Origin: Sphingobium sp. TKS | GTDB lineage: Bacteria; Pseudomonadota; Alphaproteobacteria; Sphingomonadales; Sphingomonadaceae | NCBI RefSeq assembly: GCF_001563265.1 | Contig: NZ_CP005083.1 | Span: 871,001 to 935,000, forward strand | Reading direction: 5' to 3' | DNA length: 64,000 nt | Shown here: piece by piece, positions 3,874-33,127 of the stretch | Numbering within the stretch: the stretch's first letter is position 1 | How the letters are laid out: each line of letters starts with the position of its first letter | Made by a program: the position numbers and the translations under genes | Notes under the pieces: model-generated | The model's input: the letters and a program-made list of their open reading frames with translations, nothing else | Databases searched by the model: none | Told to the model about the DNA's origin: nothing

Positions 3874-4602
3874 TCAGCTGCGGTTTTTGAAGCGCCAGCT
3901 GTCGTTGCCTGTCTCGACGATATCGCAATGGTGGGTGATGCGGTCGAGCAGCGCGGTGGTCATCTTGGGATCGCCGAACACGGTGGGCCACTCGCCGAAG
4001 GCGAGGTTGGTGGTGATGATGACCGAGGTCTGCTCGTAGAGCTTGCTGATCAGGTGGAACAAGAGCTGCCCGCCGGATCGGGCGAACGGCAGATAGCCCA
4101 GTTCATCGAGCACCACGAGATCAAGCCGGCTGAGCTGCGCGGCGATGGCGCCGGCCTTGCCGATGCGGGCTTCTTCCTCGAGCCTGGTGACGAGATCGAC
4201 CGTGTTGAAGTAGCGCCCGCGGGCCCCGGCACGCACGACGCTGGCGGTGATCGCAGTGGCCAGATGGGTCTTGCCGGTCCCTGTGCCGCCGATGAGCACG
4301 ATGTTGCGGCGACCGGGTAGGAACGAACCTGCGTGCAGGGAGCGCACCAGCTCTTCGTTGATCGGGGTGCCCTCGAACGCGAAGGCGTCGAGGTCCTTGA
4401 TTACCGGCAGCTTGGCTGCGGTCATGCGGTAGCGGATCGAGGCGGCATGACGATGCGCGGCTTCGGCGCGCAGCAGGTCGGTCAGGATCTCGTGGGTCGT
4501 GCGCTTGCGCTGCAACCCGGTGGTGACCGCCTCGTCGAAGGCTCCTGCCATGCCCTTGAGGCCGAGTGAGCGCATCGCCTCGATCATCTCATGCCGCTGC
4601 AT
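3874..4602 (-). CDS. istB: IS21 helper ATPase IstB
   Basis: AAA+ ATPase that assists the IstA transposase by selecting target DNA. Walker [10 protein letters not shown] and Walker [11 protein letters not shown] are intact, and the protein begins [10 protein letters not shown] as usual for IstB. The start at 4602 fits family length (242 aa) and overlaps the end of istA by 14 bp, the usual coupled istAB arrangement. A frame extends further upstream within istA but reads as out-of-frame istA sequence. The gene looks intact, but the IS256 element upstream probably separates the pair from its promoter. Confidence 0.93.
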
Positions 4603-6108: not shown

Positions 6109-7530
6109 GGTCGCGTCCGTCAAGGTGGTGTAATTTCGGCTGTGGCCGTGGGCCATCGTCAGGCGGCTTTGGCGGTGATGTGTAGGGGCTGATTTTCCTC
6201 CTCGATCATGGGTTGGTTGAGTTCGGCCATGCCTTCGATCTGCATGTATCGGTGCTGGAGCTGCCACTCGTCGTTCTGCTCCATCAGCACAGCCCCGACG
6301 AGGCGGATGATGCTGTCTTCGTTCGGGAAGATTCCGACGACGTCGGCGCGGCGCTTGACCTCCTTGTTGAGCCGCTCGAGCGGATTGGTTGAGTGTAACT
6401 TCGTGCGGTGCTGGGTGGGGAAGCCGGTGTAGGCGAGCACGTCGGTTTCGGCCTCGTCCATGCAGGCGCCGAGCTTGGGCCAACGGGTGCGCAACTGGTC
6501 GGCGACCTGTCGCCAGACCTGCGTTGCGCTTTTCTGATCGGGCTGCAGGAAGACCTGGCGGATCGCGGCGGCGACGACAGTGTTCTGGCCCTTGGGCACA
6601 TAGGACAGGGCATTGCGCATGAAGTGCACCCGGCAGCGCTGCCAGGTGGCGCCCATGACGCGGGTGATCGCGCCCTTGAGGCCCTCGTGAGCATCGGAGA
6701 TGACCAGCTTCACGCCGGTAAGACCGCGCCGAACAAGGTCCTTCAGGAAGTCGGACCAGAAGACCTCCGCTTCCGAGGGGCCGATATGCAGGCCGACGAT
6801 CTCGCGCCGGCCCTCGGTGTTGACGGCCATGGCGATTATTGCGGCAACGCTGATGATCCGCCCGCCTTCGCGTACCTTGAGATAGGTGGCATCGAGCCAG
6901 AGATACGGCCATTCGCCGGTGAGCGGGCGTTTCAGAAAGGCATGGACGCGCTCGTCAATGTCCTTGCAAAGCTTGGAGACGGTGGACTTGGAGATGCCGG
7001 TCATGCCCATGGCCTGGACGAGTTCATCGACCCGCCGGGTGCTGACCCCGCCGATCCACGCTTCCTGGATCACCGCAACCAGCGCTTTCTCGACCATCTT
7101 GCGGGGCTCAAGGAAGCCCGGAAAATAGGACCCAGCACGCAGCTTGGGGATTTTCAGGTTCAGCGTGCCTACCCGGGTATCCAGCGAACGGTCGCGATAG
7201 CCGTTGCGCCAGGTCGCGCGCTCGCTGCTGCGTTCGTGGCGACCCGCGCCGATCAGGCCATCAACGTCGGCCTCCATGATCAGCTGCAGCACGTTCTCGG
7301 CGATGGTGCGCAAAAAATCCGGTTGGCCGCCCTTTGCAGCCAGCTCTTCGATCAGTAATCTGTCCTCGGTCATCGGGAACTCCTCTTCGTCACGGTTGAA
7401 GTGTGCAAACTCCACCATAACGATGAACCCGGTGGCCACCAGCGACGCCGCATTCCGGGGTGGGGCATGCCCCACCCCGGAATACACCATCGCCTACACC
7501 GGAAATTACACCACGAGCGCGGACGCTAAC
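6109..7530 (-). mobile_element. IS256-family element, copy A (1422 bp)
   Basis: Ends are defined by imperfect inverted repeats: GGTCGCGTCCG at 6109 and, read inward from 7530, GTTAGCGTCCG, both followed after five bases by GTGGTGTAATTTC. The direct repeat CATCCCGA lies immediately outside each end (6101-6108 and 7531-7538), an 8-bp target duplication normal for IS256. One transposase is encoded on the minus strand. A palindrome, CCGGGGTGGGGCATG and its complement, lies upstream of the transposase near 7457-7481. Copy B at 22512-23933 has the same length. Confidence 0.93.
6159..7373 (-). CDS. IS256-family (mutator-type) transposase
   Basis: DDE transposase of 404 aa. Catalytic residues are visible in LWLDATYLKV (first D), VISDAHEGLKG (second D) and NPLERLNKEVKRR (E); the C/H region WQRCRVHFMRNAL is typical of the family. 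I start it at 7373 (MTEDRLLIEEL) because GAGGAG sits eight bases upstream. A longer in-frame extension to 7490 runs through the palindromic leader and lacks a good ribosome-binding site. The protein is identical to that of copy B, so one copy is probably a recent transposition product. Confidence 0.94.
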   Translation of the reverse strand: MTEDRLLIEELAAKGGQPDFLRTIAENVLQLIMEADVDGLIGAGRHERSSERATWRNGYRDRSLDTRVGTLNLKIPKLRAGSYFPGFLEPRKMVEKALVAVIQEAWIGGVSTRRVDELVQAMGMTGISKSTVSKLCKDIDERVHAFLKRPLTGEWPYLWLDATYLKVREGGRIISVAAIIAMAVNTEGRREIVGLHIGPSEAEVFWSDFLKDLVRRGLTGVKLVISDAHEGLKGAITRVMGATWQRCRVHFMRNALSYVPKGQNTVVAAAIRQVFLQPDQKSATQVWRQVADQLRTRWPKLGACMDEAETDVLAYTGFPTQHRTKLHSTNPLERLNKEVKRRADVVGIFPNEDSIIRLVGAVLMEQNDEWQLQHRYMQIEGMAELNQPMIEEENQPLHITAKAA

Positions 7531-7645
7531 CATCCCGATCTCACCACCTGGAAAACCAGGCAGCCTGCTACACCATCAGAATGAGGGGTCCCTTTTAGAC
7601 GCCGATCACCCCGCTAACGGGGTCCCTTTTGCACGCCGGTCCACA

Positions 7646-7834
7646 CTTTTGGCGGCAAACTTGGGTGACGATGCCGACACCACAGCTGCTATCACAGGCC
7701 AGTTAGCTGGAGCCCTTTATGGATCCTCGTCCATTCGGCCGTCATGGTTGGAAAAGCTGGCATGGCGCGAGGAAATAGAGGGTCTTGCTCGCAATCTGGC
7801 TTTCCCGACAACCGCGCCGCCGAGCCGGCACTGA
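7646..7834 (+). pseudogene. C-terminal remnant of an ADP-ribosylglycohydrolase
   Basis: Directly right of the IS21 end the plus frame reads LGDDADTTAAITGQLAGALYG followed by WLEKLAWREEIEGLA and a stop. The GDDADTTAAI...GQLAGALYG block is the conserved C-terminal metal-binding signature of ADP-ribosylglycohydrolase (DraG/ARH-like) proteins. Everything N-terminal is absent, replaced by IS21. The broken gene left of the IS is a different protein, so this is not a simple insertion. ADP-ribosyl hydrolases often occur in toxin-antitoxin and defence islands, which fits the context. The stretch 7835-8098 that follows shows no convincing gene. Confidence 0.75.
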
Positions 7835-8098: not shown

Positions 8099-8680
8099 TC
8101 AGCTTATGAGCGGAAAGCCGTTGATCTCGAGTTCACCACCCAGCGCAATGCGGACCTCTACCGCTGGCCGATCCCGGTCCGATGTTTCAATTGATGGGTC
8201 ATATCGCTGAGACAGATAGTGAAATCGCTGGTTTTCAGATCCCACCCAGTTTCGCTGCGTATCGAGTTTGCCGGCAACGAATGGCCCGTCGACGACAACG
8301 TCTGCGTGAGCCAGCAATTGCTCAACTCCTGGGAGGGCTCGTCGACGAAGCTGATCCAATCGGAATCCCGTGAACAGCATTACCGACAGGTCCTGCAATT
8401 TGCAGAATTGGGCTATCTCGGCGAGTGCCTTCGCTTGGTACGCTGGCTCGCCGCCTAGGAAGGTGACACCTTCAATCGCATGGATTTCGCGTGCCAGCTC
8501 AATCTCGGCGATGATCTCGGTCGATGAAATCACTTGCCGGCGCACAAAGGGTAGCAGCTCTTGGTTGCAGCATCCGGGACAGTCGATGTCGCAACCCTGC
8601 ACCCAAAGCGCGTAGCGCGAGCCCGGCCCTTCGACCGATGTGCACGGGATCCGCTTCGCAACGTTGAGGAAGCAGGTCAT
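8099..8680 (-). CDS. NrdG-like radical SAM protein (operon gene 5)
   Basis: Protein of 193 aa with an N-terminal cluster motif C30-x3-C34-x2-C37 (WVQGCDIDCPGC) and a SAM-contact GGEP at 76-79 (VTFLGGEP). This is the arrangement of anaerobic ribonucleotide reductase activases (NrdG) and related short radical SAM enzymes. By family, it should bind a 4Fe-4S cluster and cleave SAM to a 5'-deoxyadenosyl radical. No NrdD partner is present. It overlaps the preceding AAA+ gene by 4 bp (8677-8680), so its substrate is more likely a component or product of this operon. It could be a glycyl-radical activase, or a peptide- or nucleotide-modifying enzyme; neither is shown by sequence. Confidence 0.85.
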   Translation of the reverse strand: MTCFLNVAKRIPCTSVEGPGSRYALWVQGCDIDCPGCCNQELLPFVRRQVISSTEIIAEIELAREIHAIEGVTFLGGEPAYQAKALAEIAQFCKLQDLSVMLFTGFRLDQLRRRALPGVEQLLAHADVVVDGPFVAGKLDTQRNWVGSENQRFHYLSQRYDPSIETSDRDRPAVEVRIALGGELEINGFPLIS

Positions 8681-10518
8681 ACCACCTCGAGGGATACGCG
8701 GACCGATCCGTCTAGGTCTTGAGCTATGACAAGAGCCTTGCCGATGCAGACGCTTCGATCTGCGACCTCAGTGAACAAGAAATGCGACACCGGGTCGATC
8801 AACCATTTCGTCAAAGCTGTTATTGCGCCGCGCCCGCCCATTGTTGCATCGATTTCGCCAGCTACACTTTCCAAAAACGCGCGTTCATTCGCGATCCGAA
8901 CCGTTCGGATGCCGTACTTGTCCTGCAGTTGTGCTCTGAGAGGGCCGATCTTGCTGCGCAAAATCTCGACCAAGAAGCCCTTATCGCGCACGAAATTGAA
9001 TGCGACGATATTGTCGCCGATCCGGTTCAGCAGCTCTGGTCGTCCCATCTCGCGTACAAAATGGTCTCGCACCCTGCGTTTGAAAGCGGCTCGGGTTTCC
9101 TCGTCACTGGCCGCTGGGTCGATCTCGGCCGCGCCAATATTCGAAGTGAAAATGATGATTGCCTCGGAAAAACTGACCGTTTGTCCGCGGCCATCCGTGA
9201 GACGGCCGTCCTCGAGAATCTGCAGGAACTTATCGAGTATCCGTACGTGGGCTTTCTCAATCTCATCGAAGAGAAGCACGCAAAACGGTCGCTTGCGGAT
9301 CGCATTGGTGAGCTGTCCGCCTTCCTCGTAGCCGACGTAGCCCGGTGGTGCGCCAATCAGCCGCTGATCGCTGTGCTCGTGATTGAACTCGGACATATCG
9401 AAGCGAATGAAGGCTTCCTCATCTCCGAACAGAAATTCAGCGAGAGCCTTGGCCAATTCCGTCTTGCCAACACCGGTCGGCCCTACAAAAAAGAGGGTTC
9501 CCTTGGGCATGCGCTGCCGTTTGGAATGTTGAAGTCCTGCCAGCCCGGTAAAGGCTCGTATCGTAGCCGCAGTGACCTTATCGATGGCGTGAGATTGACC
9601 CTTGACCCGCTCCGCGAGCATTTCCGGCATCGCGAGGAGCTTGTCGCGGCTAAGAGCCTCCCACGCACTTGTTTGAATGCCATGGCGATACAGACTTAGC
9701 AGTTGCTCTGAGGTCAACTCTTCGGTTGCCGCGGATTTACGGGACAATTCTTCAATATTGAGGAGGTCCTGAAACGACATCCCGTCGAGTGCATCGACGA
9801 GATCCTCGTAGGCTACCTGCCCAGGCTTGGGCTGATTCTTCAATTTCCATCCATGGAGCCGATCTCCAAGTAGCATCAGTCGCTCTTCTCGATCAGGCAG
9901 AGGAACAACAACCTCGCGGACATGGGCAGGGCCCGGTAACATTGAGAGCGGAAGTGCCTGTGCGTTCGGCGAAACCAGAATCAGAAGATTGGCTGTCCCC
10001 CTCGCTTCCGTATCAGCCCGTCCGATGATCGCCTTGGCAAGCCGGGCCAGGATATCGCGTTCTGCCTGAGATGGCTGCTGACCAGAAAAGAAGGCAAAAT
10101 TTGCCAGATTGACGACGAACGCTGTTGGCCGATCTGTGCCATCAACCATCGCTGTCAGCATAACCGCAACGAAGTCGTCGATGGTTACGCGGGTCGATTT
10201 GGGTCCGCTGTCGAAATGCTCGTCTGGGGCAATCGCATAGGCAGAGCCTTGCGTTTCAGCCGGTCCTACGGCGCTCGCAAGATCCTCCCATCTGGCCGCA
10301 TCGCGCCCGCTCACCCCCGTCACGAGATCCCACTCGATGACCGTTTCAAACGGACCTTCCCTGAGAGTTTCGGCGACGAGCAGCGGCACACGCTGATATT
10401 CCATCGTCCATGGATTTCTACGCAGATCATGGACTTCGCCGTGGACCACGATGCATGGGACCAGCCCTGCGTGGGTTTCGAGACTGCGCAACCAAACCGG
10501 ACGGTGCACCGTGCTCAT
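8677..10518 (-). CDS. ClpB-like AAA+ ATPase with degenerate first AAA half (operon gene 4)
   Basis: Protein of 613 aa. Residues ~300-613 are a complete ClpA/ClpB D2-type AAA+ module: Walker A GPTGVGKT (346-353), pore loop GYVGYEEGG (393-401), Walker B LLFDEIEKAH (415-424), sensor 1 TSN (458-460), arginine in LLNRI (499) and sensor-2 region MGGRGA (~560). Residues 1-290 have an AAA-like order of strands (TVIEWDLVTG, PTAFVVNLANF, NLLILVSPN, then a lid-like VVPLPDREERLMLLGDRL) but no Walker A, so this half looks inactive. There is no ClpB N-domain and no M-domain coiled coil. A 4-bp overlap on each side couples it to its neighbours. Protein remodelling or unfolding of an operon partner is a reasonable inference; substrate unknown. 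Confidence 0.88.
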   Translation of the reverse strand: MSTVHRPVWLRSLETHAGLVPCIVVHGEVHDLRRNPWTMEYQRVPLLVAETLREGPFETVIEWDLVTGVSGRDAARWEDLASAVGPAETQGSAYAIAPDEHFDSGPKSTRVTIDDFVAVMLTAMVDGTDRPTAFVVNLANFAFFSGQQPSQAERDILARLAKAIIGRADTEARGTANLLILVSPNAQALPLSMLPGPAHVREVVVPLPDREERLMLLGDRLHGWKLKNQPKPGQVAYEDLVDALDGMSFQDLLNIEELSRKSAATEELTSEQLLSLYRHGIQTSAWEALSRDKLLAMPEMLAERVKGQSHAIDKVTAATIRAFTGLAGLQHSKRQRMPKGTLFFVGPTGVGKTELAKALAEFLFGDEEAFIRFDMSEFNHEHSDQRLIGAPPGYVGYEEGGQLTNAIRKRPFCVLLFDEIEKAHVRILDKFLQILEDGRLTDGRGQTVSFSEAIIIFTSNIGAAEIDPAASDEETRAAFKRRVRDHFVREMGRPELLNRIGDNIVAFNFVRDKGFLVEILRSKIGPLRAQLQDKYGIRTVRIANERAFLESVAGEIDATMGGRGAITALTKWLIDPVSHFLFTEVADRSVCIGKALVIAQDLDGSVRVSLEVV

Positions 10519-11708
10519 TTGCTGCGCCCCCCCGCGCTATCGGGCAAACGCTTTTCCGATTTTCCGATCATGTCTGGGTTTTGCCAGGAGATGCTCTCCT
10601 CTCCGAGTTCAATGCCGTAAATATCCTGCAACTTGGGCAAAACCTTATCTGCGTCCTCGAGGCAGGCCTGCCCCTGATAGTGGTCAAATTTGTAGCTCAT
10701 CTCATCCAGCTTCACTCGAAATGCCGCCTGCGCACCCGAGGGACGCTGTGCCTTGATCACCACGGCGCCAGCTTCTCCGCCTTCGAGCTTTGGCTCGGCA
10801 ATAACGAAGCCTGCACTGCGCAACTCGCGTAGTAGTCCGCTGACTACATGCCTTCGAGCAGCTTCCTGTAGGGCGCGATCGTCAGCCGCCTGGCGTATCG
10901 CCGAAAGGTGGTCATCCAGACTTTGCATGTCCATCTGACCGCCAATGACCCGAGACTGCAATTGCCGGATCTCAGCCAATGCCACATCGTCGTGCAGTTG
11001 TGAGAACACGGCCAGTGCGTCTTCCAAGACTGCTTCCATATCGCGCTGCGCCTCTTCGCGTTGTTCAGAAAGCTGCAGTGCTTCGGCTTTCGTTCTGGCG
11101 CTCGCCGTCACCGCCTCGAGGCGGACCTTGAGGTTACTCTGGATTTGATCCAGCTCTTGCAGATTAATCTCACTCCGCTCGATTTCTTGGCGCAATGCCA
11201 TCAGGTCTGACTGGCCGAGATCCCGCTCAACCGGTCCGGCCAATGACAGACGTGCTTGGTGGATCATGGCGAGCAAGTCTTCGCGTACAGCCTGCTCGCG
11301 AACCATTGCCTCTGCGCGAGCATCGCGTTCGAACGCCATTCGGTCCCGTGCGGCGTCACGTTCCGCTTGCAATGCCGCTTCGGTAGCATCTCTCTCGGCT
11401 ACCTGCGCCGTACGACGATTTTCACGTGCCCGCGAGCCAATTGACCGCATCATGGCTGAGAGGCGCTTGTTCTCTTCTCGCGCCGCCTCTGGGTCTTGTA
11501 CAAGCAAGCGTTCGACCTGAGCGAGCACGTCGCGGCAAGCGGCATAGTCGCCTGCAACGTAGATATCCAATTCCTGCGCCCTCAGAGCATCAAGGCGCTC
11601 CCTGTTTTTTGCAGCGAAGGCCTCTGTCGTGCTCCTGACCCGATTGAGATACATTTGCCTGCGTTGACGAGCCTCGATCGCCCAGCGTCGATCCGCGACA
11701 TAGCTCAT
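10515..11708 (-). CDS. Coiled-coil protein of unknown function (operon gene 3)
   Basis: Protein of 397 aa, dominated by long charged heptad-like stretches rich in Ala, Glu, Arg and Gln from about residue 10 to 290 (for example REENKRLSAMMRSIG and RQEIERSEINLQELDQ), then a small globular C-terminal part (residues ~295-375: FVIAEPKLEGGE, FRVKLDEMSYKFDHYQG). There is no signal peptide, membrane segment or recognisable catalytic motif. It may be a scaffold linking the ATPase and the nuclease or helicase. Both ends overlap neighbours by 4 bp (11705-11708 and 10515-10518). I do not recognise the family. Confidence 0.8.
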   Translation of the reverse strand: MSYVADRRWAIEARQRRQMYLNRVRSTTEAFAAKNRERLDALRAQELDIYVAGDYAACRDVLAQVERLLVQDPEAAREENKRLSAMMRSIGSRARENRRTAQVAERDATEAALQAERDAARDRMAFERDARAEAMVREQAVREDLLAMIHQARLSLAGPVERDLGQSDLMALRQEIERSEINLQELDQIQSNLKVRLEAVTASARTKAEALQLSEQREEAQRDMEAVLEDALAVFSQLHDDVALAEIRQLQSRVIGGQMDMQSLDDHLSAIRQAADDRALQEAARRHVVSGLLRELRSAGFVIAEPKLEGGEAGAVVIKAQRPSGAQAAFRVKLDEMSYKFDHYQGQACLEDADKVLPKLQDIYGIELGEESISWQNPDMIGKSEKRLPDSAGGRSK

Positions 11709-13585
11709 TGGTTTACACCTGTTTTGATGCTCTTGGATGCGCTGAGAAAGCTCTTCGCGTTCATCCAGTGGATGCCATAAGGTTTACAGCGCAGCAGGAA
11801 GTCGTGGTCTTCGCTCACGAGAACGACCTCATAGCCTCGCTGTCGGTATGGGATCAGGGCAGCAATAATCGCCCCGTCATTATTCCGATTGTCTCCCGGG
11901 GCGAGCAAGCTGCGATCAGAAAATGGAGCTGTCCAGCGCTCTCGCGGCAATTCATCAATGGCGCGTAGATTGCTGCGGCTGGCGATACGAAACGCTGCGC
12001 TATCAGTCTTTTTCCGCTCGACCTCGGCAGCTACGACCTGCGGGTTCACCAGGAAATCTGTCGGCTGGAGGCTTGCAACGAGTTCACCATTCTGAATGAA
12101 GGACGATGTATCAAAGGCGATTACCCTCGTGCACGACTGCGGGACAGGCGCAATATCTTTGCTGCCTGCTGCAGGCCCGGACATCATGGCCTGTGAGGAA
12201 GGGAAAAGTTCTGCAAATCCAGGATAAGCCGCGCGGAGACGGACCAATCGCTCATCGCTGGGTAGCCTGTCTCGCAAGGTCGCAAGAATCGAAGGAGGAA
12301 GGCTCTTCAGAGCGTTGACGATCCCTATCGTCCATTGCTTCCCATCCAACGGGCTAGCTGGCCTTTCATCCAATCTGCGCCAGAATTCTGCCGGATCGAG
12401 CCAGAACGCTGGCAGGATGGCGATCTCCGGAGAGTCCGAGTACTGGCATTCGGTTTCAAGCGCCTCGACCACATCGCTCCAGGCCGACCCATCCCGTGCG
12501 AAACCGGGTGCGGGCCGGTAAACACCGATATCTGCGTGCAGACCATTCCATGTGACCGGGAGGCGCAAGTATTCTTGCCCTCCATTGGTATAAAAAATTC
12601 CCGAAAGGCCTGAATTATCACTGCGCGGGTACGCGACCTGTCGAGCTCGCTGCGCCGAAGTGCCTTCAAGAAATGACGGTTCAAAGGCTTGCTCTGCCGC
12701 ATCGAGAACGACATGAACAACTGATGGCGGCAAGGCGAGGCTGGCAAGCGCCTGGGCGGGAATGCCGCGTGTCAAAACTAGACCGCTCAGATTGTCCGGT
12801 ACGTTAAGGTCAATCGAAAGGCCCGTGCCTCCCAGCGACGACCAATCGACAGTTGCGCTGGGAGTGCTCGGCAGAAGCCAGGAGCCTCGAACTCGCTGGC
12901 TGAGCCCACGTAGATAGTCGGTCTGCCGGGGATCTTCACATTCGACAGATAGTTCGCCGTCTTGGACGACAAGCCCCGCCGTCACACGCCGCCAGCCATG
13001 ACCAAGCAGTTTCGGGACAGCGGAGTAAAGCTGCACATCGTCGCGCAATTCGCTTCGGAGTTCGCGCTCGACCCAATGCGTGGGCAAATGGGCCAGGAAG
13101 GGTTCGGCCGGTACGCAGAAGTCGCGCACCTCGTTCTCGTCGGGTGCTAGAGTGGCGACGTCGACGATCTCATCTAGAACCGGATCAAAGAATCGCTCTA
13201 TTTTGCGGGCCTGGGCCGCATGGAGGTCGATCATCGGTGACCCGCTTTGACGCGCTTTATCCCCCGCACTTCGTCCTGGGGCGAGGTCAATGATCCGCAG
13301 CGAGGATGGATCGATCCCAACTTCTCCAATCTGATGAACCCGGCCACGTTCGATCAAGTCCTCCAGCACGTCGGGCAAGATTTCTCGGGCACCAGACACC
13401 CCGTAGAGCAGGCGAAAAAGCTCAGGAATGGGCACAGATGCCAGCGCGTTTCCGCTGCGATGAAACTCCAGCACAGCAGCTTCCAAAGCCCTATGGAGTG
13501 GCGTTAATTCCGGAAGGAGACGGTACGATGCCTCCGCCTGAAGGTGCAGGACCGGAAACCAAACAGAAAGTGATCCAAGCCTCAT
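11705..13585 (-). CDS. Large protein with C-terminal PIN-like nuclease domain (operon gene 2)
   Basis: Protein of 626 aa. Residues ~487-615 look like a PIN nuclease: VIAFDTSSFI (Asp492), VVAAEVERKK (Glu521/523), NNDGAIIAAL (Asp570) and VLVSEDHDFLLRC (Asp593/595), the spaced acidic residues that bind metal in PIN RNases, with a CKPYGI strand after the last. The first ~480 residues are not recognised; they are mixed alpha/beta, with VHVVLDAAEQAF and LPVTWNGLHADIGVYRP, and could be an effector-regulating or sensing part. Start at 13585 gives a 4-bp overlap with the helicase gene stop; the end overlaps the coiled-coil gene by 4 bp. The likely activity is RNA cleavage; the target is unknown. Confidence 0.8.
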   Translation of the reverse strand: MRLGSLSVWFPVLHLQAEASYRLLPELTPLHRALEAAVLEFHRSGNALASVPIPELFRLLYGVSGAREILPDVLEDLIERGRVHQIGEVGIDPSSLRIIDLAPGRSAGDKARQSGSPMIDLHAAQARKIERFFDPVLDEIVDVATLAPDENEVRDFCVPAEPFLAHLPTHWVERELRSELRDDVQLYSAVPKLLGHGWRRVTAGLVVQDGELSVECEDPRQTDYLRGLSQRVRGSWLLPSTPSATVDWSSLGGTGLSIDLNVPDNLSGLVLTRGIPAQALASLALPPSVVHVVLDAAEQAFEPSFLEGTSAQRARQVAYPRSDNSGLSGIFYTNGGQEYLRLPVTWNGLHADIGVYRPAPGFARDGSAWSDVVEALETECQYSDSPEIAILPAFWLDPAEFWRRLDERPASPLDGKQWTIGIVNALKSLPPSILATLRDRLPSDERLVRLRAAYPGFAELFPSSQAMMSGPAAGSKDIAPVPQSCTRVIAFDTSSFIQNGELVASLQPTDFLVNPQVVAAEVERKKTDSAAFRIASRSNLRAIDELPRERWTAPFSDRSLLAPGDNRNNDGAIIAALIPYRQRGYEVVLVSEDHDFLLRCKPYGIHWMNAKSFLSASKSIKTGVNQ

Positions 13586-16500
13586 GCGGGGCGATCCCCT
13601 GATCGGCGCGCCCGTGGCCCGAGGATGTCTTGCGCTCGCCAGAGCCCGCCTGCATCCCTGATATCGTCGATGATCTGGCCGTAAACGCGGGTCCGCCGCG
13701 GCGGGCCGCCATCGACAGGCTCGATCGCAACCTCGAAGCTCTCAAACGTCTTTCGCGCACCGATTACGACCAAAAGGTCGCGCGCACGGGAAAATGCGAC
13801 ATTGATTCTCTCGAATTTCGCCGGGTTCGAATTGCGCCCCAAGCGCCCCTTTTGTGGAGATCGGTTACGGACCATGCTGACGATGACGATATCTGCTTCC
13901 TTGCCCTGCAACCGGTCCACAGTCTCGACATCGATCCGTTGCTCATTGAATCGGGAGCCGAGCTTTTCCCGAAGGCTTGCCTGGATCAGGCGCTTCTGAC
14001 GATTGTAGAAGGTCGCTACTGCGATAGTCTTCTTGCGCTGCTCCCTCGCGCAGCCATCGACAATGTCCGCGACTAGTTGGGCAACCAGCCGCGCCTCAAG
14101 TTGGTTGCCGATGCCGCCGTTTTCACTGTCTTCAAAGGCTGGCTTGCCCGCATCATCCTCAGAACTATCAACCCAGAGCGCATGTTGGTGCGGGGACAGA
14201 TAGTGCCCCCCGGTCCGCGAGTGTAGGGTGAGGCCGTGCGTTCGCCAGGACCACTCGGCAGTTTCGTCTGAACCATCCGGGTCGACCAATCCGGATTCCA
14301 ACCGGCCGTCGTAGAAACGGTTGACCAGCGCCATGATCTGCGGGTGCATGCGGTATTGGGTATGCAGCGCGGCCCTGGACTTCGCATCGATTTCGGCGAA
14401 GCCGTCACGGAACAGCGAAGCGGTGGTCAACCGCTCGTACTTGCGAAGCAGTTCGACTTCGCGCTCAAGCGCTTCAGGATCCTCATCTTCGGTCCGCAAT
14501 CTGTCTGATTGCCCGCTTGTCGCGAAATCGAATGTTGGAGGAAGCTGGCGATGATCTCCCACAAGGATGGTCTTGGGCGCCAACAGCATTGGCCGCAGCA
14601 GCTCAAGAGGGGTCGCCTTGCTCACCTCGTCGATGATCACCACGTCGAAGCGCGAGAACCCGGCATCCGAGAGGACACTGAAGTCGGAATTGCAGGTGAT
14701 ACCGATGACGTTGGCGTTGCGGATATATCGCTCCCCCATTCGGTCGGTAGCAGACGGATTTTCTGCCTGATTTTTGGCGTCGAGTACCCATTGATCGAGC
14801 AGCGGCAACCACGCTTTGAGCGGATCAAAGTCGTTAAGGCGAGCCTCCTGCAAGTCGGCATGATTTTGAACAGCGCCAATCGCTGCGGAGAGTTCACTTG
14901 GAACTTGATTCTGGTTGAGAAACCCTTCGATCTCCGACAGCAGTTTTCCAACTTTTTCTCCAACCGCATTCGCACGGCCTTGCGCATCGTCCAGCGACTG
15001 TTGTGCCCGCCGGAGTTGGCTCTCGGCTTGCGCGACAGTTAAAGAATTCTCCTCTTGCCCCTTTCGGTCTGGTTGACGTGACGATGGCAAATCCGGCCAG
15101 TCGGCAAGGACCGCAGTCCTCACCTGCAACATTGCTGTCTCGCGGTGATTATCTTCCGAATTCAATTGAGGCTGGAGTGCGCGAACCCTCTCTTGCACTT
15201 GGCGATTTAGAGCCCCTGGTGAAACATCAAGGCGCACCGCTTTTCCATCAAATTTAGCCAATAACTTGAGGAGATCGGCTGCATCCGCAGCGAGAGCAGG
15301 CAAAAACAGCGATGGATCCCAGTCTGAGGCATGGGCCAAGGCATCATGCGCCATAGCCCACCATTTTATGCGCGCATCGCTCTCCAACTCGCACCCCTCG
15401 CGGTGAAGAAGTTCAGTGAGCCGCTCTTGTGCTGCGCTCAAATCGCGCTCGCGGCGCTGGAGGTCTGATCCAATGGCCGCTCGATCACGCTCGAGCTTCC
15501 GGGCGCGTTCCAGCCAAATCTGCCAATGCTCAACGTCGTCCGCCAGTCCATGGAAAGGATCGCGGACTGCAGCTTCCACGTGATCTGCGGCCAAACGATA
15601 CCAGTCGCCGATCGCTGAAGACTTTTTCTTGTCACCCTCAACCCTGCTTAGCCAAAGAGGGCGAGCCTCAGGATCTTCGATTAATCGCTCAAGTGCATTC
15701 TCAACCGCGAGGTTCGTCTGCGAGGCAATAAGGACCCGTTGTCCAGATCTAACGAAATGCGCGCAGGCCGCCGCAATCATCGTCGTTTTTCCGGTTCCGG
15801 GCGGTCCCTGAATGTAGGCAATTTCGGGAGCCGCAAGCATGACTTCCACCGCACGAGCCTGATCTTCGTTAAGGCGGTACAGGGTGGCAATTCCCGCATT
15901 GAGAAGTCGGCCTGATTTTGCCATCGGCCTCGACACTTGCGAAACATTAAAAATCGACGCCATCAAGTAGGGTGCGGCGGTCAGCCGGCTCCTATGCTTG
16001 CCTCCAGGCGCGAGGAATTGAAGCTGTCTCAGCGCATCTCGGTATCGTGCAATCTGTGTGCGAGCGCCGGCCGCTTCCGACATATTGCGCAATCCGAAAG
16101 ATGCATCGTCAGGGAGTTCCGCTAGAGCTGCCGCATCTCTGACCCCAAGCACAATGCGAACAGATCTGGCTGCGCCATTAGGCCAAGGACAGTGCCTTGA
16201 GATATCGATCGTTGGGTTTTCTTCGACGACTTCGACACTGTCGCATCGAAAACTGCTTGCGGTGCTACCCAACTGTTCTTGAGCGCCCCATTGGAAAAGT
16301 TCCATACGCGGCTGTGAGCCAGCAAACTTCGGCCCGGATGTGAGCATCCGTGCAACCTGCTTAGTCTCGCAGAAGAGGTATCCTTCCCAGATGCGTCCCT
16401 TCCATTCTCCCGGACCAAGAATCGCCGAGGGAGCCCTTCGAAGGATCTGTTCATCGGCCCAGTCAAGGTAGCCGCGCCAGTCACGAAGGCGACCTTCGAG

Positions 16501-18462
16501 CTCAGTCAGCAAGACTGGCGCCGGAGATGCGGCTTGGCCCAGAAGATCTTCCAGAGGGTGCGCGGCTGCCGGAAGCCTGTTCCTGGACGTATGCCGGATC
16601 AATGTAATGACCCGCTCAAACGGGCGCGGCTCGCTGTCGGGAACAAGAGCGGCGTCTAGGAAATAGATGGTGGTATTGCCCGGGGTTCTTTCCTCGTCGT
16701 ATGCGAGGCGGCACAAGACGCAGATCGACATTGCGTCCGGTAACGCGCTTTTCAGTTGGGGAAGAACCTTCGCAGGCCGGAAAAGTGCGAGTGTGCCGCG
16801 CTTCTCTTCCGAGACGACGGACACAAAGAACGCCCGCTCTTCTCCCTCATCGCCAAAAAATTTATCACAAAAATCATCAATGAAGTTCGCCCGATCTTCT
16901 TCGGCCGGCTCATCGGCTTCGAAAGATGAAGCAAGGACTGATGCCAATCTTTCATCGTCCCTGTTCACGTAGCCGGTCTGCGAGCGGCGCTGCAGAAGGA
17001 CTGGCAACGAGGCAAGCGTCAGCGGTTCGTCGCTCGCTCGTCGATAGGCCATGTGGCCCATCGGCGTTGGGTTCCCCAGAGCTTCTTTTTCCCGGAACGA
17101 TGAAGTGGTGGGGTCATAAACCATGCCCGCGCGTGGCGCGCGATCCTGAAGTCGAACACGCCATCTTTGCGCCTCGCTCTCGAGGCCTTCCAGTTGAGCA
17201 TTTTCCTGACGCTCGCAGTCACGAAGGTCATCATTTAGCTTCGCGCGTCGTTTTTCGAGCAAGCATTGCAGCCGCTCTTGCTTGCGCCCAGCGCGAAGAT
17301 GTCGGGAGTTCATCGTGGCAATGCTTGCCTCGATCGCTTCGAGGCTCAGCTGTGCCTTCCTAAGCCGATCATCGAAGTAGGCATCAATGAGTTTACGTTG
17401 CTCATCCTCGTAGCGCGCTTCTTGCAGGGAGATTTCGGATAGCTGCGCGGTGAGACTTGTCGAGATTCCCGCAGACATGCGTTCGATGTCAGAGAGATGT
17501 GCCGCCGCTTCGTTCGAGTCATGCAAGGCAATGTCTGTGAGTTTTTGGCGCACGGAATTTGGCAGTGATGCAAGTTGCCGTTCGTGCGCACGACGGCTTT
17601 CATCAAGCTTCAGATCGAGATTCGTAATCGTCGCCTGGGTCGTGCTCAATCTGCTCTGACATGCCTTCAGGTCTCTCGCGATTTCGTCTTCGCTGCGCGA
17701 AAGTAAGTTCCATGGATTCAGGCGGCGTGCAAGCCAGCCTAGTCCCTCGGCTGATGCTAACTGCGAGGCGCGCGCACGCGCTTCGTTGAGCTCCTTCTTC
17801 AGCTGCGAGAGCTCCCCTTCCGCGGCCAACTGCACATCACGCTGTTCTGCCAAAGAGTGTTGTAACTCTTGCGAAATTTTCCGAAATTTGATTTCGCAAG
17901 CGTCAATTTCCGTAGCAAGCGCATCTCGGTAGGGTTGCGGCTCCAGCCCTGCAATAAGAGACGAAAATAGGGCATCGCTATCGAACTTGCGTGTCGCAAA
18001 GGCCTGTTGCTCGTGGGCAAGCTCGTCACTGCGTTTCAGCAGCGCATCAATCTGACCTTTGCGCCGTTCAATCTCTTTGTCAGCGTCGGTCAAAGCTGCG
18101 TCAGCATGAGCCTTCGCCGTCGCTATTTCCGCTTCAGACCATTGATGTGCCTTGCCCCGTTCGAGAAGGAACCGAAGCTCATTGCGCTCTTCGGTGAGTC
18201 GTCGAACGCTGGCAGCAATCTGTTCACCTTCGCTGACCGTCTGCTCCAAGAAAACGTGCAGCCTGCTGAGCCTGGAATTGGCGCGTTGTTGCAGCTTGGA
18301 CGCAGATAATTGAGCATTATTTCGGACATCTTCCGATCTCTGAGAAAGCGATTGCAGTGCAATTTCGTCGGCTCGGAAAAGGGCGCGAACATGATCAACA
18401 AGGAGGCTTTCAATCCCTTCGGAAAACCGGATCGCTGATGAACTACGGGACTTTTCGATCAA
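13582..18462 (-). CDS. Coiled-coil SF1 helicase, UPF1/DNA2-like (operon gene 1)
   Basis: Protein of 1626 aa. Residues ~30-440 form long coiled coils, 440-860 are an unrecognised globular region, and the rest is an SF1B-type helicase: Walker A QGPPGTGKTT (885-894), SQTNLAVENAL (914-924), Walker B VVIIDEVSKA (1274-1283), GDHRQLPPTFD (motif III, ~1302), TQYRMHPQI (1368-1376), VDRLQGKEADIVIVS (1515-1529) and NVAFSRARDLLVVIG (motif VI, ~1554). A second coiled coil (~985-1020 and 1140-1180) is inserted between motifs Ia and II, as in the DNA2/UPF1 group. It starts at TTG 18462 with GAAGG seven bases upstream, and is first in a five-gene run of 4-bp overlaps. Translocation on RNA or DNA is expected from the family. 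Confidence 0.9.
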   Translation of the reverse strand: MIEKSRSSSAIRFSEGIESLLVDHVRALFRADEIALQSLSQRSEDVRNNAQLSASKLQQRANSRLSRLHVFLEQTVSEGEQIAASVRRLTEERNELRFLLERGKAHQWSEAEIATAKAHADAALTDADKEIERRKGQIDALLKRSDELAHEQQAFATRKFDSDALFSSLIAGLEPQPYRDALATEIDACEIKFRKISQELQHSLAEQRDVQLAAEGELSQLKKELNEARARASQLASAEGLGWLARRLNPWNLLSRSEDEIARDLKACQSRLSTTQATITNLDLKLDESRRAHERQLASLPNSVRQKLTDIALHDSNEAAAHLSDIERMSAGISTSLTAQLSEISLQEARYEDEQRKLIDAYFDDRLRKAQLSLEAIEASIATMNSRHLRAGRKQERLQCLLEKRRAKLNDDLRDCERQENAQLEGLESEAQRWRVRLQDRAPRAGMVYDPTTSSFREKEALGNPTPMGHMAYRRASDEPLTLASLPVLLQRRSQTGYVNRDDERLASVLASSFEADEPAEEDRANFIDDFCDKFFGDEGEERAFFVSVVSEEKRGTLALFRPAKVLPQLKSALPDAMSICVLCRLAYDEERTPGNTTIYFLDAALVPDSEPRPFERVITLIRHTSRNRLPAAAHPLEDLLGQAASPAPVLLTELEGRLRDWRGYLDWADEQILRRAPSAILGPGEWKGRIWEGYLFCETKQVARMLTSGPKFAGSQPRMELFQWGAQEQLGSTASSFRCDSVEVVEENPTIDISRHCPWPNGAARSVRIVLGVRDAAALAELPDDASFGLRNMSEAAGARTQIARYRDALRQLQFLAPGGKHRSRLTAAPYLMASIFNVSQVSRPMAKSGRLLNAGIATLYRLNEDQARAVEVMLAAPEIAYIQGPPGTGKTTMIAAACAHFVRSGQRVLIASQTNLAVENALERLIEDPEARPLWLSRVEGDKKKSSAIGDWYRLAADHVEAAVRDPFHGLADDVEHWQIWLERARKLERDRAAIGSDLQRRERDLSAAQERLTELLHREGCELESDARIKWWAMAHDALAHASDWDPSLFLPALAADAADLLKLLAKFDGKAVRLDVSPGALNRQVQERVRALQPQLNSEDNHRETAMLQVRTAVLADWPDLPSSRQPDRKGQEENSLTVAQAESQLRRAQQSLDDAQGRANAVGEKVGKLLSEIEGFLNQNQVPSELSAAIGAVQNHADLQEARLNDFDPLKAWLPLLDQWVLDAKNQAENPSATDRMGERYIRNANVIGITCNSDFSVLSDAGFSRFDVVIIDEVSKATPLELLRPMLLAPKTILVGDHRQLPPTFDFATSGQSDRLRTEDEDPEALEREVELLRKYERLTTASLFRDGFAEIDAKSRAALHTQYRMHPQIMALVNRFYDGRLESGLVDPDGSDETAEWSWRTHGLTLHSRTGGHYLSPHQHALWVDSSEDDAGKPAFEDSENGGIGNQLEARLVAQLVADIVDGCAREQRKKTIAVATFYNRQKRLIQASLREKLGSRFNEQRIDVETVDRLQGKEADIVIVSMVRNRSPQKGRLGRNSNPAKFERINVAFSRARDLLVVIGARKTFESFEVAIEPVDGGPPRRTRVYGQIIDDIRDAGGLWRAQDILGPRARRSGDRPA

Positions 18463-19046: not shown

Positions 19047-19323
19047 GGGTTGCCTCCAAATGGCCCAGTTTTCGGATGGTCGTTACGGGTCATGCCGACC
19101 GACCGCAAAACGGTCGCCGACCAACTGTCGGACCATTGAGCCACCGCAGCCGCCCATCTGTTCGGGATTGCGGCTCTCGCTTGCCTTCTCGCGCAACGTA
19201 GGCTAGCATCTGGTGGTCATCAAGAGTTGGGTCGACGCCCACACCAACCTGCCGTTCCGGGCAAGGTGGTTTTGCGAAAGCAGATGTGGCCCACATCCGG
19301 GCAACGAAGCGGAAGCTGTGTCG

Positions 19324-19342
19324 ACCCTCCAATCTGGAGGGT
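19324..19342 (+). promoter_or_regulatory. Hairpin sequestering the DUF3293 Shine-Dalgarno
   Basis: ACCCTCC (19324-19330), loop AATCT, GGAGGGT (19336-19342): a perfect 7-bp stem whose 3' arm is the Shine-Dalgarno GGAGG of the gene starting at 19347. Translation should be low unless the stem is opened. The rest of the gap 19047-19323 shows nothing I can assign. Confidence 0.55.
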
Positions 19343-19346
19343 TTCC

Positions 19347-19775
19347 ATGTCCAAGACATCACTCGATCCTACCCTTATTCAGGCCTATCGGCGAACGCGC
19401 TACAGCGCAGATCTGGGCGGTGAGGCCATCGTGCTGCGGATCGATGTGCCTTCTGTAGTGGTGGCCGCCGCGATCCAGGCGAGCAGTTCTCCCGGAGCTG
19501 CCTTCATCACCGCGGAGAATCCCTACAGCAGCCCGAACTCTGCACAGGAGAACGCGGCATCGATGGCGTTGCTGAAAGGTGAACTCGAAGCCCTGGGAGC
19601 CACGGTTTTCGAAGGGGTGGGGCAGGGGGACGACCCCGCTTGGCCTGGTGAGGCGAGCTACCTTGCTCTTGGCCTTTCGCGCGATCAGGCCTGCCTGCTT
19701 GGACGAAAGTACCAGCAAAACGCGATCGTATGGATCGGCGTCCATGGGACGCCCGAGTTGGTTTTGCTGCGCTGA
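19347..19775 (+). CDS. DUF3293 family protein
   Basis: Protein of 142 aa with the DUF3293 pattern: AAFITAENPYSSPNSAQENAA, a middle GATVFEGVGQGDD, EASYLALGLSRDQACLLGRKYQQNAIVWIG. The family is a small cytoplasmic protein of unknown function. Start at 19347 (MSKTSLDPTL) follows GGAGG and conserved length; an upstream in-frame extension to 19227 has no support. It lies 106 bp ahead of metK, with the riboswitch in the gap, so transcription from here may run into the riboswitch. Confidence 0.85.
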   Translation: MSKTSLDPTLIQAYRRTRYSADLGGEAIVLRIDVPSVVVAAAIQASSSPGAAFITAENPYSSPNSAQENAASMALLKGELEALGATVFEGVGQGDDPAWPGEASYLALGLSRDQACLLGRKYQQNAIVWIGVHGTPELVLLR

Positions 19776-19802
19776 CCTGTCGGCCCAGGCATTGATTGGT
19801 TT

Positions 19803-19818
19803 GGCCCGCCCAAGGGCC
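19803..19818 (+). other. Small GC hairpin between DUF3293 and riboswitch
   Basis: GGCCC, loop GCCCAA, GGGCC, directly abutting the riboswitch P1 stem. It may be a weak terminator of the upstream gene or part of an extended P1. No T-run follows. Confidence 0.3.
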
Positions 19819-19876
19819 GGGGGGATTTGTTCCTGATTGCCGCCCCCGACATCGTCAAAGCGGCTAAAACTGGAGA
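19817..19876 (+). ncRNA. SAM-II (SAM-alpha) type riboswitch upstream of metK
   Basis: The leader folds as a SAM-II H-type pseudoknot. P1 is CGGGGG (19818-19823) with CCCCCG (19843-19848). The loop starts GATTTG (19824-19829), continues TTCCTGATTGCCG, and its GCCG (19839-19842) pairs with CGGC (19861-19864), followed by the invariant-looking GCTAAAA (19863-19869). The Shine-Dalgarno TGGAG (19871-19875) sits at the pseudoknot's 3' edge, so SAM binding should hide it and repress translation. The order GATTTG...CC...ATTGC...GCTAAAA matches what I know of SAM-II; the related SAM-V class shares this core. Its place six bases ahead of a SAM synthetase start codon gives direct product feedback. Confidence 0.8.
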
Positions 19877-19881
19877 CTTTT

Positions 19882-21084
19882 ATGTCTGTTTTTGAAGGGT
19901 TGTTCACCTCTGAAGCCGTATCGGCCGGGCATCCTGATAAGCTCTGCGATCAGATTTCGGACGCCGTTCTCGATGCCTTCCTGAGGCTCGATCCCAATGC
20001 CCGAGTCGCTTGCGAGACCTTCGCTGCAAACGACAAAATCATCGTGGCTGGGGAGTTCCGGACCACCCGACCGGAAGACTTTGCCGCGGTTGAGGCAGGA
20101 GCACCTGAGCTGGTTCGCGCTGTCCTGCGCGAGGTAGGCTACGGCCACGAAGCCACTGATATTGATCCAGCTACTTGTGAAATTGAGGTCCGCTTCAATC
20201 GTCAAAGTCCGGAAATCGAGGCGGGAGTCGATGGCGGAGAGGAGACGGGTGCCGGCGATCAGGGCCTCATGTTTGGTCATGCCGTTGCTGAGACCGAACA
20301 CTTCATGCCGCTGGCCTGGTCGCTCGCGACGGATCTTGTCGCTCGCGCCAGTGAGCTTGTGGGGGAGGGGGGCAGCGCGTTGAGGCCTGACGGCAAAGCT
20401 CAGGTCACTGTGCGTTACCGCGAGGGCAAGCCGGTCGGCGTGGAGACGGTCGTGTTGTCATGGCAGCATCAGTTTGAGAGCGAGCTCGAGGCGGTCAGGG
20501 CTCTGCTGCAGGCCGAAGTGATTGACCAGGTCATTCCGTCCCACCTGCGGACCCCTCAGTTCAAGGCGCTCATCAACCCGGCCGGGCCATTCACCGTAGG
20601 CGGGCCCAAGGGTGACACGGGCCTTACCGGACGAAAGATCATCGTCGACACCTACGGCGGCGCTTGCCCCCATGGCGGGGGCGCCTTCTCCGGCAAGGAT
20701 CCAACAAAGGTCGACAGGTCGGCCGCCTATGTCGCAAGGCACATCGCCAAGAATATTGTGGCTGCCCGCTTGGCAAACCGTTGCACCGTTCAGCTGGCCT
20801 ATGCGATCGGTGTCGCCGAGCCTGTGTCGGTGAACGTCGAGACCTACGGAACCGGCACAATTCCCGATGCCGCGCTGGCGACCGCAGTTCGAGCTGCGTG
20901 GGACCTGACACCTGCGGGGATCATCCGCGATCTCGACCTGCTGCGTCCCATCTATTCCGACACTGCCGTGCTCGGCCATTTCGGGCGTTGGCGCTCACCG
21001 GCGCACCATCGCTGGGAGCGCCTCGATAAGGCCGCAGCATTGGCTCACCAACTGTCCCAGGACAGCTTGGAGGCTGTAGGCTGA
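19882..21084 (+). CDS. metK: S-adenosylmethionine synthetase
   Basis: Makes SAM from methionine and ATP. Full length at 400 aa with the family signatures: SAGHPDKLCDQISDA near the N-terminus, GAGDQGLMFG (ATP/Mg site) and the glycine-rich GGACPHGGGAFSGKDPTKVDRSAAY. Start at 19882 follows TGGAG by six bases. Because it sits in an island, it is probably a second copy beside the housekeeping metK (not visible here). Riboswitch control of its own product, and a SAM-using radical enzyme in the nearby operon, suggest it may supply SAM locally; the latter is inference. Confidence 0.95.
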   Translation: MSVFEGLFTSEAVSAGHPDKLCDQISDAVLDAFLRLDPNARVACETFAANDKIIVAGEFRTTRPEDFAAVEAGAPELVRAVLREVGYGHEATDIDPATCEIEVRFNRQSPEIEAGVDGGEETGAGDQGLMFGHAVAETEHFMPLAWSLATDLVARASELVGEGGSALRPDGKAQVTVRYREGKPVGVETVVLSWQHQFESELEAVRALLQAEVIDQVIPSHLRTPQFKALINPAGPFTVGGPKGDTGLTGRKIIVDTYGGACPHGGGAFSGKDPTKVDRSAAYVARHIAKNIVAARLANRCTVQLAYAIGVAEPVSVNVETYGTGTIPDAALATAVRAAWDLTPAGIIRDLDLLRPIYSDTAVLGHFGRWRSPAHHRWERLDKAAALAHQLSQDSLEAVG

Positions 21085-27681: not shown

Positions 27682-27734
27682 GGTTGATCCTCCCCTTGGA
27701 GATTTGGGTGCGTTGGGCACTGGAATTACTCAGA

Positions 27735-27757
27735 CTAATTATTTCTCGGAGTAATAG
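27735..27757. promoter_or_regulatory. Putative GntR operator, site A (TonB receptor promoter)
   Basis: AATTATTTCTCGGAGTAATA, about 55-75 bp upstream of the receptor start. It aligns with sites B (34275-34294) and C (36592-36611) around a CGGAGTA core flanked by A/T-rich bases. The rest of the gap 27682-27925 shows nothing further that I can assign. Confidence 0.5.
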
Positions 27758-29350: not shown

Positions 29351-29370
29351 TCAAAGCTCTCCTCTTGGGT

Positions 29371-29438: not shown

Positions 29439-29443
29439 AGTTG

Positions 29444-30457: not shown

Positions 30458-30491
30458 GCGGACTCTCTTCGACAGCGGTTCTGGGCGTCAT

Positions 30492-33123: not shown

Positions 33124-33127
33124 CGCC

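Follow-up and report, generated by a model that had tools for sequence, protein, structure and literature searches.

A conserved five-gene operon of Sphingobium sp. TKS encoding a UPF1-like helicase, a PIN protein, a helical scaffold, a two-tier AAA+ ATPase and a radical SAM enzyme, with a possible role in defence

A 64,000-nucleotide stretch of the genome of Sphingobium sp. TKS (NCBI RefSeq assembly GCF_001563265.1, contig NZ_CP005083.1, positions 871,001 to 935,000), here called the window, contains an operon of five minus-strand open reading frames (ORFs) spanning positions 8099-18462, which are predicted to encode a superfamily 1 (SF1) helicase, a PIN protein, a coiled-coil protein, a ClpB-like AAA+ ATPase and a radical S-adenosylmethionine (SAM) enzyme. 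The ORFs lie where the initial annotation of the window had placed them, and neighbouring genes overlap by four bases (ATGA) at all four junctions, as that annotation had also described. A promoter scan returned zero promoter-like sites, against a chance expectation of 3.5. The genes and their predicted parts, with lengths in amino acids (aa) and the basis of each assignment, are as follows.

13582..18462, minus strand: gene 1, UPF1/SMUBP2-like SF1 helicase, 1626 aa, TTG start (ORF, Pfam, PDB matches, profiles)
13738..15873, minus strand: predicted SF1 helicase core of gene 1, residues 864-1575 (Pfam, aligned motifs)
11705..13585, minus strand: gene 2, PIN protein, 626 aa, with a long N-terminal region (Pfam, homologue alignment)
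11729..12133, minus strand: predicted PIN RNase domain of gene 2, residues 485-619 (alignment, structural match)
10515..11708, minus strand: gene 3, helical scaffold with a small C-terminal alpha/beta domain, 397 aa (AlphaFold, homologues)
10572..10928, minus strand: conserved C-terminal region of gene 3, residues 261-379, ending W.NPD (alignments)
8677..10518, minus strand: gene 4, two-tier AAA+ ATPase, 613 aa (Pfam, NCBIfam)
9679..10518, minus strand: N-terminal half of gene 4, residues 1-280, probably a degenerate AAA module, as it lacks a Walker A GK[ST]
8755..9645, minus strand: predicted active ClpB D2-type AAA module of gene 4, residues 292-588 (GPTGVGKT, LLFDEIEK)
8099..8680, minus strand: gene 5, NrdG-like radical SAM enzyme, 193 aa (Pfam, NCBIfam)
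8570..8593, minus strand: radical SAM cluster motif of gene 5, C30xxxC34xxC37 (invariant in 10 of 10 aligned loci)

The libraries searched included PADLOC 2.0.0 and NCBIfam 20.0, and Pfam and PADLOC matches were listed to E 0.1. Gene 1 matches the Pfam SF1 helicase families AAA_11/AAA_12 over residues 864-1570 and carries helicase motifs I (GPPGTGKT), II (DEVSKA), III (VGDHRQLPP) and VI (NVAFSRARD), of which I and III are identical in all ten aligned loci. Its matches in PDB include SMUBP-2, DNA2 and UPF1, and by these motifs and relatives the protein is classed as a UPF1/SMUBP2-like SF1 helicase. Gene 2 matches PIN_4 in Pfam (residues 491-607), and the acidic residues Asp492, Glu521, Glu523, Asp570, Asp593 and Asp595 of this domain are invariant in 41 of 41 aligned homologues. 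The best structural match of the PIN part is human SMG6, the closest solved structures include the nonsense-mediated decay factors SMG6, SMG5 and Nmd4 with Upf1, and the fold together with the conserved acidic residues identifies a predicted PIN RNase. The comparison with the eukaryotic UPF1-SMG6 pair drawn in the initial annotation therefore holds better than expected, on the side of the helicase as well as that of the nuclease. The structural matches of gene 2 covered the PIN part only and none of the N-terminal 480 residues, and a FADD match in gene 2 (E 0.033) was dismissed as chance.

Gene 3 has no Pfam family. Its AlphaFold model is a long helix nearly throughout to residue 298, for which the earlier label of coiled coil is fair, and residues 261-379 hold 34 of the 47 invariant columns of a nine-locus alignment; in a search for the fold of the C-terminal domain, the best match of gene 3, RnlA (E 0.099), is not significant. 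Gene 4 matches AAA_2 in Pfam (residues 338-500) and the ClpB model TIGR03346 in NCBIfam, where the second halves of both are aligned and the score lies below the curated cut-off. The N-terminal Walker A is missing in 33 of 33 aligned AAA proteins and the D2 Walker motifs of gene 4 are conserved across the alignment, and the protein is accordingly read as a degenerate and an active ClpB-type AAA module joined together, the assignment of the first module being probable. Gene 5 matches Fer4_12/Radical_SAM in Pfam, and its CxxxCxxC cysteines and a GGE motif, both invariant in the ten aligned loci, place it by sequence in the radical SAM superfamily. With the NrdG and glycyl-radical activases it shares NrdG-like sequence and the CxxxCxxC motif, from which it differs in scoring below the equivalog cut-off of TIGR02491 (E 3.8e-28, 98.4 bits versus a curated cut-off of 126.1) and in the GCCN signature. 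No glycyl-radical family was found in the Pfam scan of the five proteins, and a glycyl-radical partner was rejected because matches to an RVxGY-type motif are scattered over four proteins and none is kept across loci.

A joint search for the five proteins, of the kind proposed in the initial annotation, showed that the genes form one conserved unit in which the catalytic motifs are intact: in 11 of the 11 loci opened, the window included, they run in the order helicase, gene 2, coiled coil, ClpB-like AAA and NrdG-like radical SAM. The loci opened were those with a clear relative of gene 2 or gene 3, and having been found through the PIN or scaffold proteins they are uninformative on loci that lost both. 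They span Alpha-, Beta- and Gammaproteobacteria plus one IMG/VR contig and fall into branch A (the window, Tabrizicola, Aromatoleum, Citreicella, Tropicibacter and Leisingera), branch B (Polaromonas, Moellerella, Photobacterium and Acinetobacter) and branch C (the IMG/VR contig). Among 5.8 billion proteins, with the 7994 best candidates scored, the PIN protein has at least 44 relatives, the window's own included, and the scaffold protein at least 59. A pattern scan of GTDB species genomes returned four PIN loci, those of Tabrizicola soli, Aromatoleum anaerobium, Citreicella sp. and Tropicibacter alexandrii, and the Leisingera thetidis PIN locus came from the plasmid collection. The Citreicella helicase is in two pieces owing to an in-frame stop, and this locus was left out of the profile sets, the identity ranges and the helicase ratio of nonsynonymous to synonymous divergence (dN/dS) for that reason. 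In the other four branch A loci, identity to the window is 52-60% for the helicase, 49-59% for the PIN protein, 63-66% for the scaffold, 78-84% for the AAA protein and 69-76% for the radical SAM protein.

A scaffold probe matched 10 of 72,556 plasmid records (Leisingera, six Moellerella, Polaromonas pPNAP02, Photobacterium toruni and Acinetobacter sp. WCHA55), and the scaffold gene lies directly beside the AAA gene in all ten, six of which are related Moellerella plasmids. These ten are among the 14 plasmid records with a single match spanning 80% or more of the AAA protein; Caballeronia and other Rhizobium records were also matched in that search. Five plasmid loci were opened, that of Leisingera and the four of branch B, with one of the six Moellerella plasmids opened, and each of them reads helicase, PIN, scaffold, AAA and 4Fe-4S protein. 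Branch B proteins are 30-33% (scaffold), 44-47% (AAA) and 41-48% (radical SAM) identical to those of the window, the helicase is 33-38% identical over 431-521 aligned columns, and BLAST aligns only short stretches of the PIN protein. Profile comparison nevertheless shows homology between branches A and B for each of the five proteins, including the PIN protein (594 columns, probability 98.8, E 5e-17). Homology of the helicase profiles (E 1e-103) begins only at column 583, and the branch A helicase therefore carries an added N-terminal region of about 580 columns specific to that branch. Four-base junction overlaps occur in many loci and not in all, the Acinetobacter genes being spaced by 27-62 bases; the suggestion in the initial annotation that the overlaps lead to production in a fixed ratio as one complex is not supported, since some relatives lack them.

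Branch C is represented by contig IMGVR_UViG_3300040971_000289 (L124), which starts with two serine-recombinase ORFs and a helix-turn-helix ORF followed by the five-gene set in the same five positions. Its helicase, AAA and radical SAM proteins and the end of its scaffold match the joint A and B profiles at probability 99-100. On the other hand, its gene 2 (L124:7341-9497) has no PIN domain by Pfam and aligns with the PIN protein family weakly and at the N-terminus only (best probability 10.7), so that its homology as gene 2 rests on position. The protein ends in FRKTRNSLIHP, with RNSLIH at residue 686, which we take to be the RN-x3-H form of the HEPN motif. Such a motif also arises in 3.9% of shuffles of this protein, and no match for HEPN was found in Pfam, PADLOC or PDB; given this rate and the lack of library matches, an exchange of PIN for HEPN in branch C is put forward tentatively, as a hypothesis.

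The AAA and radical SAM genes also occur together in other settings. In Rhizobium (L019:8506-18602), an AAA and a radical SAM gene accompany a giant kinase/DUF4011/SF1 helicase/MTES_1575 protein, the helicase of which matches PADLOC PDC-S37, and a 452-aa protein. BLAST relatives of the giant protein stand beside AAA-radical SAM pairs at L106, L107 and L108, and in Aristaeella such a pair is found with kinases, FHA and a DUF4011 protein. Altogether, a radical SAM gene adjoins the AAA relative in 6 of 9 other loci (L017, L019, L106, L107, L108 and L110); those without an adjacent one are Geminocystis, where it lies 9 kb away, L109, on a 10-kb contig, and the decayed L020. In a FastTree phylogeny of 33 AAA proteins, the 11 from five-gene loci and 15 metagenome proteins lie on one side (0.91), and those of the kinase/FHA and other types on the opposite side (1.0). 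Nine of these metagenome proteins, some of them named as from Pirellulaceae, Thermogutta, Synergistales and a Proteobacteria metagenome-assembled genome, cluster with branch A and exclude branch B (0.99); the position of the branch C protein is unsure (0.34). As these metagenome proteins fall inside the five-gene side, five-gene operons are predicted in Planctomycetota, Synergistota and other phyla, and the complete set of genes may occur in many phyla. In Mesomycoplasma hyorhinis NCTC10121 (L020:2938-10340), pieces of a helicase (up to E 4e-59) are followed 4 kb on, on the same strand, by pieces of an AAA protein (E 5e-61; 49% identical to the branch C protein over part of its length), and this locus is likely to be a decayed relative of the operon. 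A separate IMG/VR contig (L125:9995-12234) holds a radical SAM ORF 43% identical to gene 5 and, immediately after it, a 536-aa AAA ATPase (PF00004), which by sequence is another radical SAM-AAA pairing with an AAA protein of another type.

The system is rare among relatives of the host. The PIN protein occurs in 1 of 397 genomes of the family and the radical SAM protein, at E 1e-40, in 1 of 385 of the class, both being the window's own. Among 299 genomes of the phylum the scaffold was found in the window and in one marginal match (G194, 70 residues, E 9e-4), which was rejected as its 3.2-kb locus matches none of the five family models. At a threshold of E 1e-75, AAA relatives were present in five other genomes of 398 in the phylum, and these five stretches gave no PIN or scaffold match. 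Across 5426 genomes of E. coli, the Moellerella AAA gene is nowhere covered to 80%. In viral contigs, none of 39 stretches matching the PIN pattern encodes a PIN relative, 37 radical SAM loci include the other four genes only at L127, on the same contig as L124, and generic ClpB modules are among the matches listed in the AAA scan (at least 80 loci).

Eight of the 11 loci are on plasmids or beside recombinases: repABC genes lie near the operon in Leisingera and Tropicibacter, four further opened copies, those of branch B, are on plasmids, three phage-integrase-family ORFs stand beside the Aromatoleum operon on a 1.35-Mb contig, and L124 has its serine-recombinase ORFs. Defence or anti-restriction genes also occur near some copies, namely BrxF with a WYL protein, DarT, and a TIR protein, and the neighbours of another copy include a type I specificity subunit, ArdA and PDC-S26. 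Furthermore, the Leisingera, Tropicibacter and Citreicella copies differ by a synonymous divergence (dS) of only 0.02-0.16, which for different roseobacter genera implies recent movement between them. In these three loci no gene in any pair reaches a dN/dS of 0.4 (AAA 0.03-0.10, radical SAM 0.08-0.33, scaffold 0.14-0.22, PIN 0.33 and, for one pair, helicase 0.37), the radical SAM values being noisy because of few changes, and the operon is under purifying selection among the three copies. Together with the gradient of identity, the ratios set a slow AAA protein against a faster helicase and PIN protein, as expected with a variable target, which suggests a conserved engine (AAA and, less clearly, radical SAM) behind a faster front end (helicase and PIN).

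No model of PADLOC or NCBIfam covers the five-gene set, in agreement with the initial annotation, which had named BREX, DISARM, Druantia, Zorya, Hachiman, Wadjet and Dnd as systems that it does not match by gene content, and no description of the set was found in a literature search of open-licence papers; as far as the databases and literature searched show, the system is unnamed. In PADLOC, the five proteins gave no signature of BREX, DISARM, Druantia, Zorya, Hachiman or Dnd at E 0.1, and JetC of Wadjet matched the coiled coil at E 0.085. The PADLOC matches of gene 1 are headed by MkoA, followed more weakly by MkoC, PDC-S37, Hhe, AbiO, Nhi and others; gene 2 is without a match, gene 3 matches only LmuB and JetC, above E 0.01, gene 4 has only partial AAA matches and gene 5 a weak viperin match (E 3e-4). 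The available parts of a BREX survey (PMC12839542), a Dnd survey (PMC10853773), a study of archaeal dark matter (PMC4158269) and the DefensePredictor paper (PMC13092281) do not describe the five-gene set.

Of the named systems, Mokosh (MkoA/MkoB; MkoC fusion; PDLC03920/03921/03924) may have the UPF1/COG1112-like SF1 helicase in common with the operon. MkoA is the best PADLOC match of gene 1 (E 9.9e-98) as well as of the Photobacterium homologue (E 7.9e-93), but the match of gene 1 is limited to profile positions 565-1099 of 1112, i.e., the helicase part in the second half. Mokosh has a PLD-family nuclease partner, either as a second gene or as a fusion, and no PLD family was matched in the five proteins at E 0.1 in Pfam; conversely, the PIN, scaffold, AAA and radical SAM proteins are not part of Mokosh. 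Dodola may share a ClpB-like AAA protein, for which gene 4 gives a partial match to DolB over the AAA core only (E 2.1e-19); no match to DolA, which has a model in the library, was listed in PADLOC for the five proteins, and no other gene in common was found. The Rhizobium operon and its relatives have the same kind of AAA and NrdG-like radical SAM pair with an SF1 helicase, differing from the window in a kinase and a restriction-type nuclease fused to the helicase (Pfam scan, Rhizobium only); these loci have no PIN or gene 3 match, and the Rhizobium AAA protein is 34% identical. UPF1-SMG6 and Upf1-Nmd4 of eukaryotic nonsense-mediated decay are also among the closest known systems. According to the available portion of a survey of conflict systems, SF1 helicases accompany PIN domains among the effectors of described systems, the FtsH ternary vWA-MoxR systems have an AAA protein with an inactive first and an active second domain, and a subset of them also encodes a radical SAM enzyme, the proposed target of which is a peptide effector (Kaur et al. 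2020, PMC7159879). On that account the operon resembles the FtsH ternary systems in its inactive-plus-active AAA layout and radical SAM gene, unlike them has an active module of ClpB D2 rather than FtsH type, and in Pfam shows no vWA or MoxR, both components of those systems, in its five proteins. Their logic is the nearest to that of the operon in the literature covered.

Around the operon, an IstB/IS21 ORF and an rve/Mu-type transposase ORF lie at 3874-6103, and two identical 1422-base insertion sequence (IS) copies of the IS256/Mutator type lie in inverted orientation at 6109-7530 and 22512-23933; a third identical transposase is found in the genome at G000:C1:782350-783678. The left copy is bounded by its own target duplication CATCCCGA and the right by its own GGGCTCAGT, from which it follows that the two are separate insertions and not the ends of a composite transposon. 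The IS-rich surroundings noted in the initial annotation are therefore real, with IS copies on both sides of the operon, but an island acting as vehicle is not borne out. The ADP-ribosylglycohydrolase remnant noted there was recovered as a C-terminal piece between the IS copy and the operon end (ORF 7460-7834, plus strand; PF03747, profile positions 252-285 of 287, E 1e-9), and ORF 12-3038, the AddA-like helicase of that annotation, combines a UvrD helicase with PD-(D/E)XK. A tRNA-end scar was not confirmed, ARAGORN having found no whole tRNA in the window, with fragments not searched. On the other side, a SAM-I/IV riboswitch (19212-19318) precedes metK (19837-21084), 1.4 kb from the operon, with a DUF3293 ORF also within 19212-21084 and a further metK-like match in the genome at C1:1464783. 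The extra SAM synthetase was not counted as part of the system in view of its own riboswitch and of the relatives, as the gene tables of Leisingera and of the four branch B plasmids that were opened, incomplete as they are, show no metK near the operon; its proximity to a radical SAM operon may be coincidence. The operon region is neighboured at 24844-40262 by what is probably a gene cluster for using plant polysaccharides, with a TonB receptor, two GH43 enzymes, an alpha-L-arabinofuranosidase C-terminal domain and genes of the MFS and LacI types.

For the function of the operon, the reading we favour, to which we give about an even chance, is a mostly plasmid- or element-borne defence against phages or competing mobile elements, in which the SF1 helicase would be the sensor and an RNase the effector; the defence role is inferred. 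The UPF1-like helicase would bind and track foreign single-stranded nucleic acid, probably RNA. Gene 2 would act as an adaptor carrying the RNase effector, PIN in branches A and B and perhaps HEPN in branch C, and gene 3 as the helical scaffold of the complex. Remodelling of the complex by gene 4 could then release or switch on the RNase, and a radical modification of a partner protein or nucleotide by gene 5, the least certain step, may license or arm the complex. Activation could lead to cutting of invader and/or host RNA and, in turn, to clearance or dormancy. A more specific form, in which UPF1-SMG6-like surveillance serves immunity through an RNA-patrolling helicase, an exchangeable RNase arm, an AAA unfoldase and an arming radical SAM enzyme, is possible though doubtful. 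Several points weigh against a defence role. We know of no phenotype for the operon; PADLOC has no match in 6 of 10 scanned proteins (8 of them chosen from plasmid or genome flanks), the defence genes near some copies stand without a background rate, and the scaffold is in no phage record. The system is also very rare (among 397 genomes of the family and 385 of the class, only that of the window has it), and UPF1-like helicases, such as DNA2 and SMUBP-2, also act on DNA. In the Mesomycoplasma locus no PIN, scaffold or radical SAM match was found at E 0.01 and the genes are fragmented even under code 4, which may reflect decay or a system able to work with fewer parts. The anatomy is also compatible with a role in stress, RNA quality control or plasmid biology.

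A mobile module for RNA quality control or stress, comparable to UPF1-SMG6 and not defence as such, would use the helicase and PIN protein to clear stalled or damaged RNA, and the AAA and radical SAM proteins to repair or recycle trapped proteins. The resemblance to SMG6, SMG5 and Nmd4 with Upf1 among PIN structures and to UPF1 among the helicase matches fits this explanation, as do the ClpB-type active module of gene 4, such modules being of the disaggregase type, and the absence of a defence-system name for the set. However, the patchy and often plasmid-borne distribution, missing in nearly all relatives, is unlike that of a housekeeping pathway, the helicase and PIN protein evolve faster than the AAA protein, and gene 2 of branch C has no detected PIN, so that we consider it unlikely. 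The helicase could instead unwind the DNA of an invader for gene 2 to cut as single-stranded DNA or R-loops, in a DNA-targeting defence of the Mokosh or DUF4011-helicase type. The MkoA match, the presence of DNA2 among the PDB matches and the partnership of the Rhizobium AAA-radical SAM pair with a kinase-DUF4011-helicase-MTES_1575 nuclease protein would be explained in this way, but none of the five window proteins has a PLD or restriction-nuclease domain and the PIN part is closest to the RNA-decay PIN, which makes DNA targeting quite unlikely.

Maintenance of a plasmid or element, through addiction or anti-competition and not as anti-phage defence, is suggested by the repABC genes near the Leisingera and Tropicibacter copies, by the four further opened plasmids, and by PIN domains, which are common in toxin-antitoxin pairs. 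It appears improbable in that the cost of five large genes, two ATPases and a radical enzyme among them, far exceeds that of a toxin-antitoxin pair, and one copy lies beside integrase-family ORFs on the 1.35-Mb Aromatoleum contig, which could itself be a plasmid. Finally, the five genes could be chance neighbours in an IS-rich region, with IS copies on both sides, without any functional unit; this explanation deserves next to no credence and is refuted by the gene order conserved in all opened loci across three branches.

If the operon does serve immunity, it would bring in an RNA-targeting defence of several genes with a UPF1-like helicase and an SMG6-like PIN domain at its base, and would also be a case of a radical SAM enzyme tied to a protein unfoldase. 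Were the doubtful surveillance form of that reading true, coupling of the radical SAM enzyme to the two-tier AAA unfoldase would constitute a radical-gated immune switch. The job of the radical SAM enzyme is the most interesting experimental question on the operon. In addition, the nuclease arm may have been exchanged around the slowly evolving AAA protein with its radical SAM partner, which suggests a regulatory engine common to several systems.

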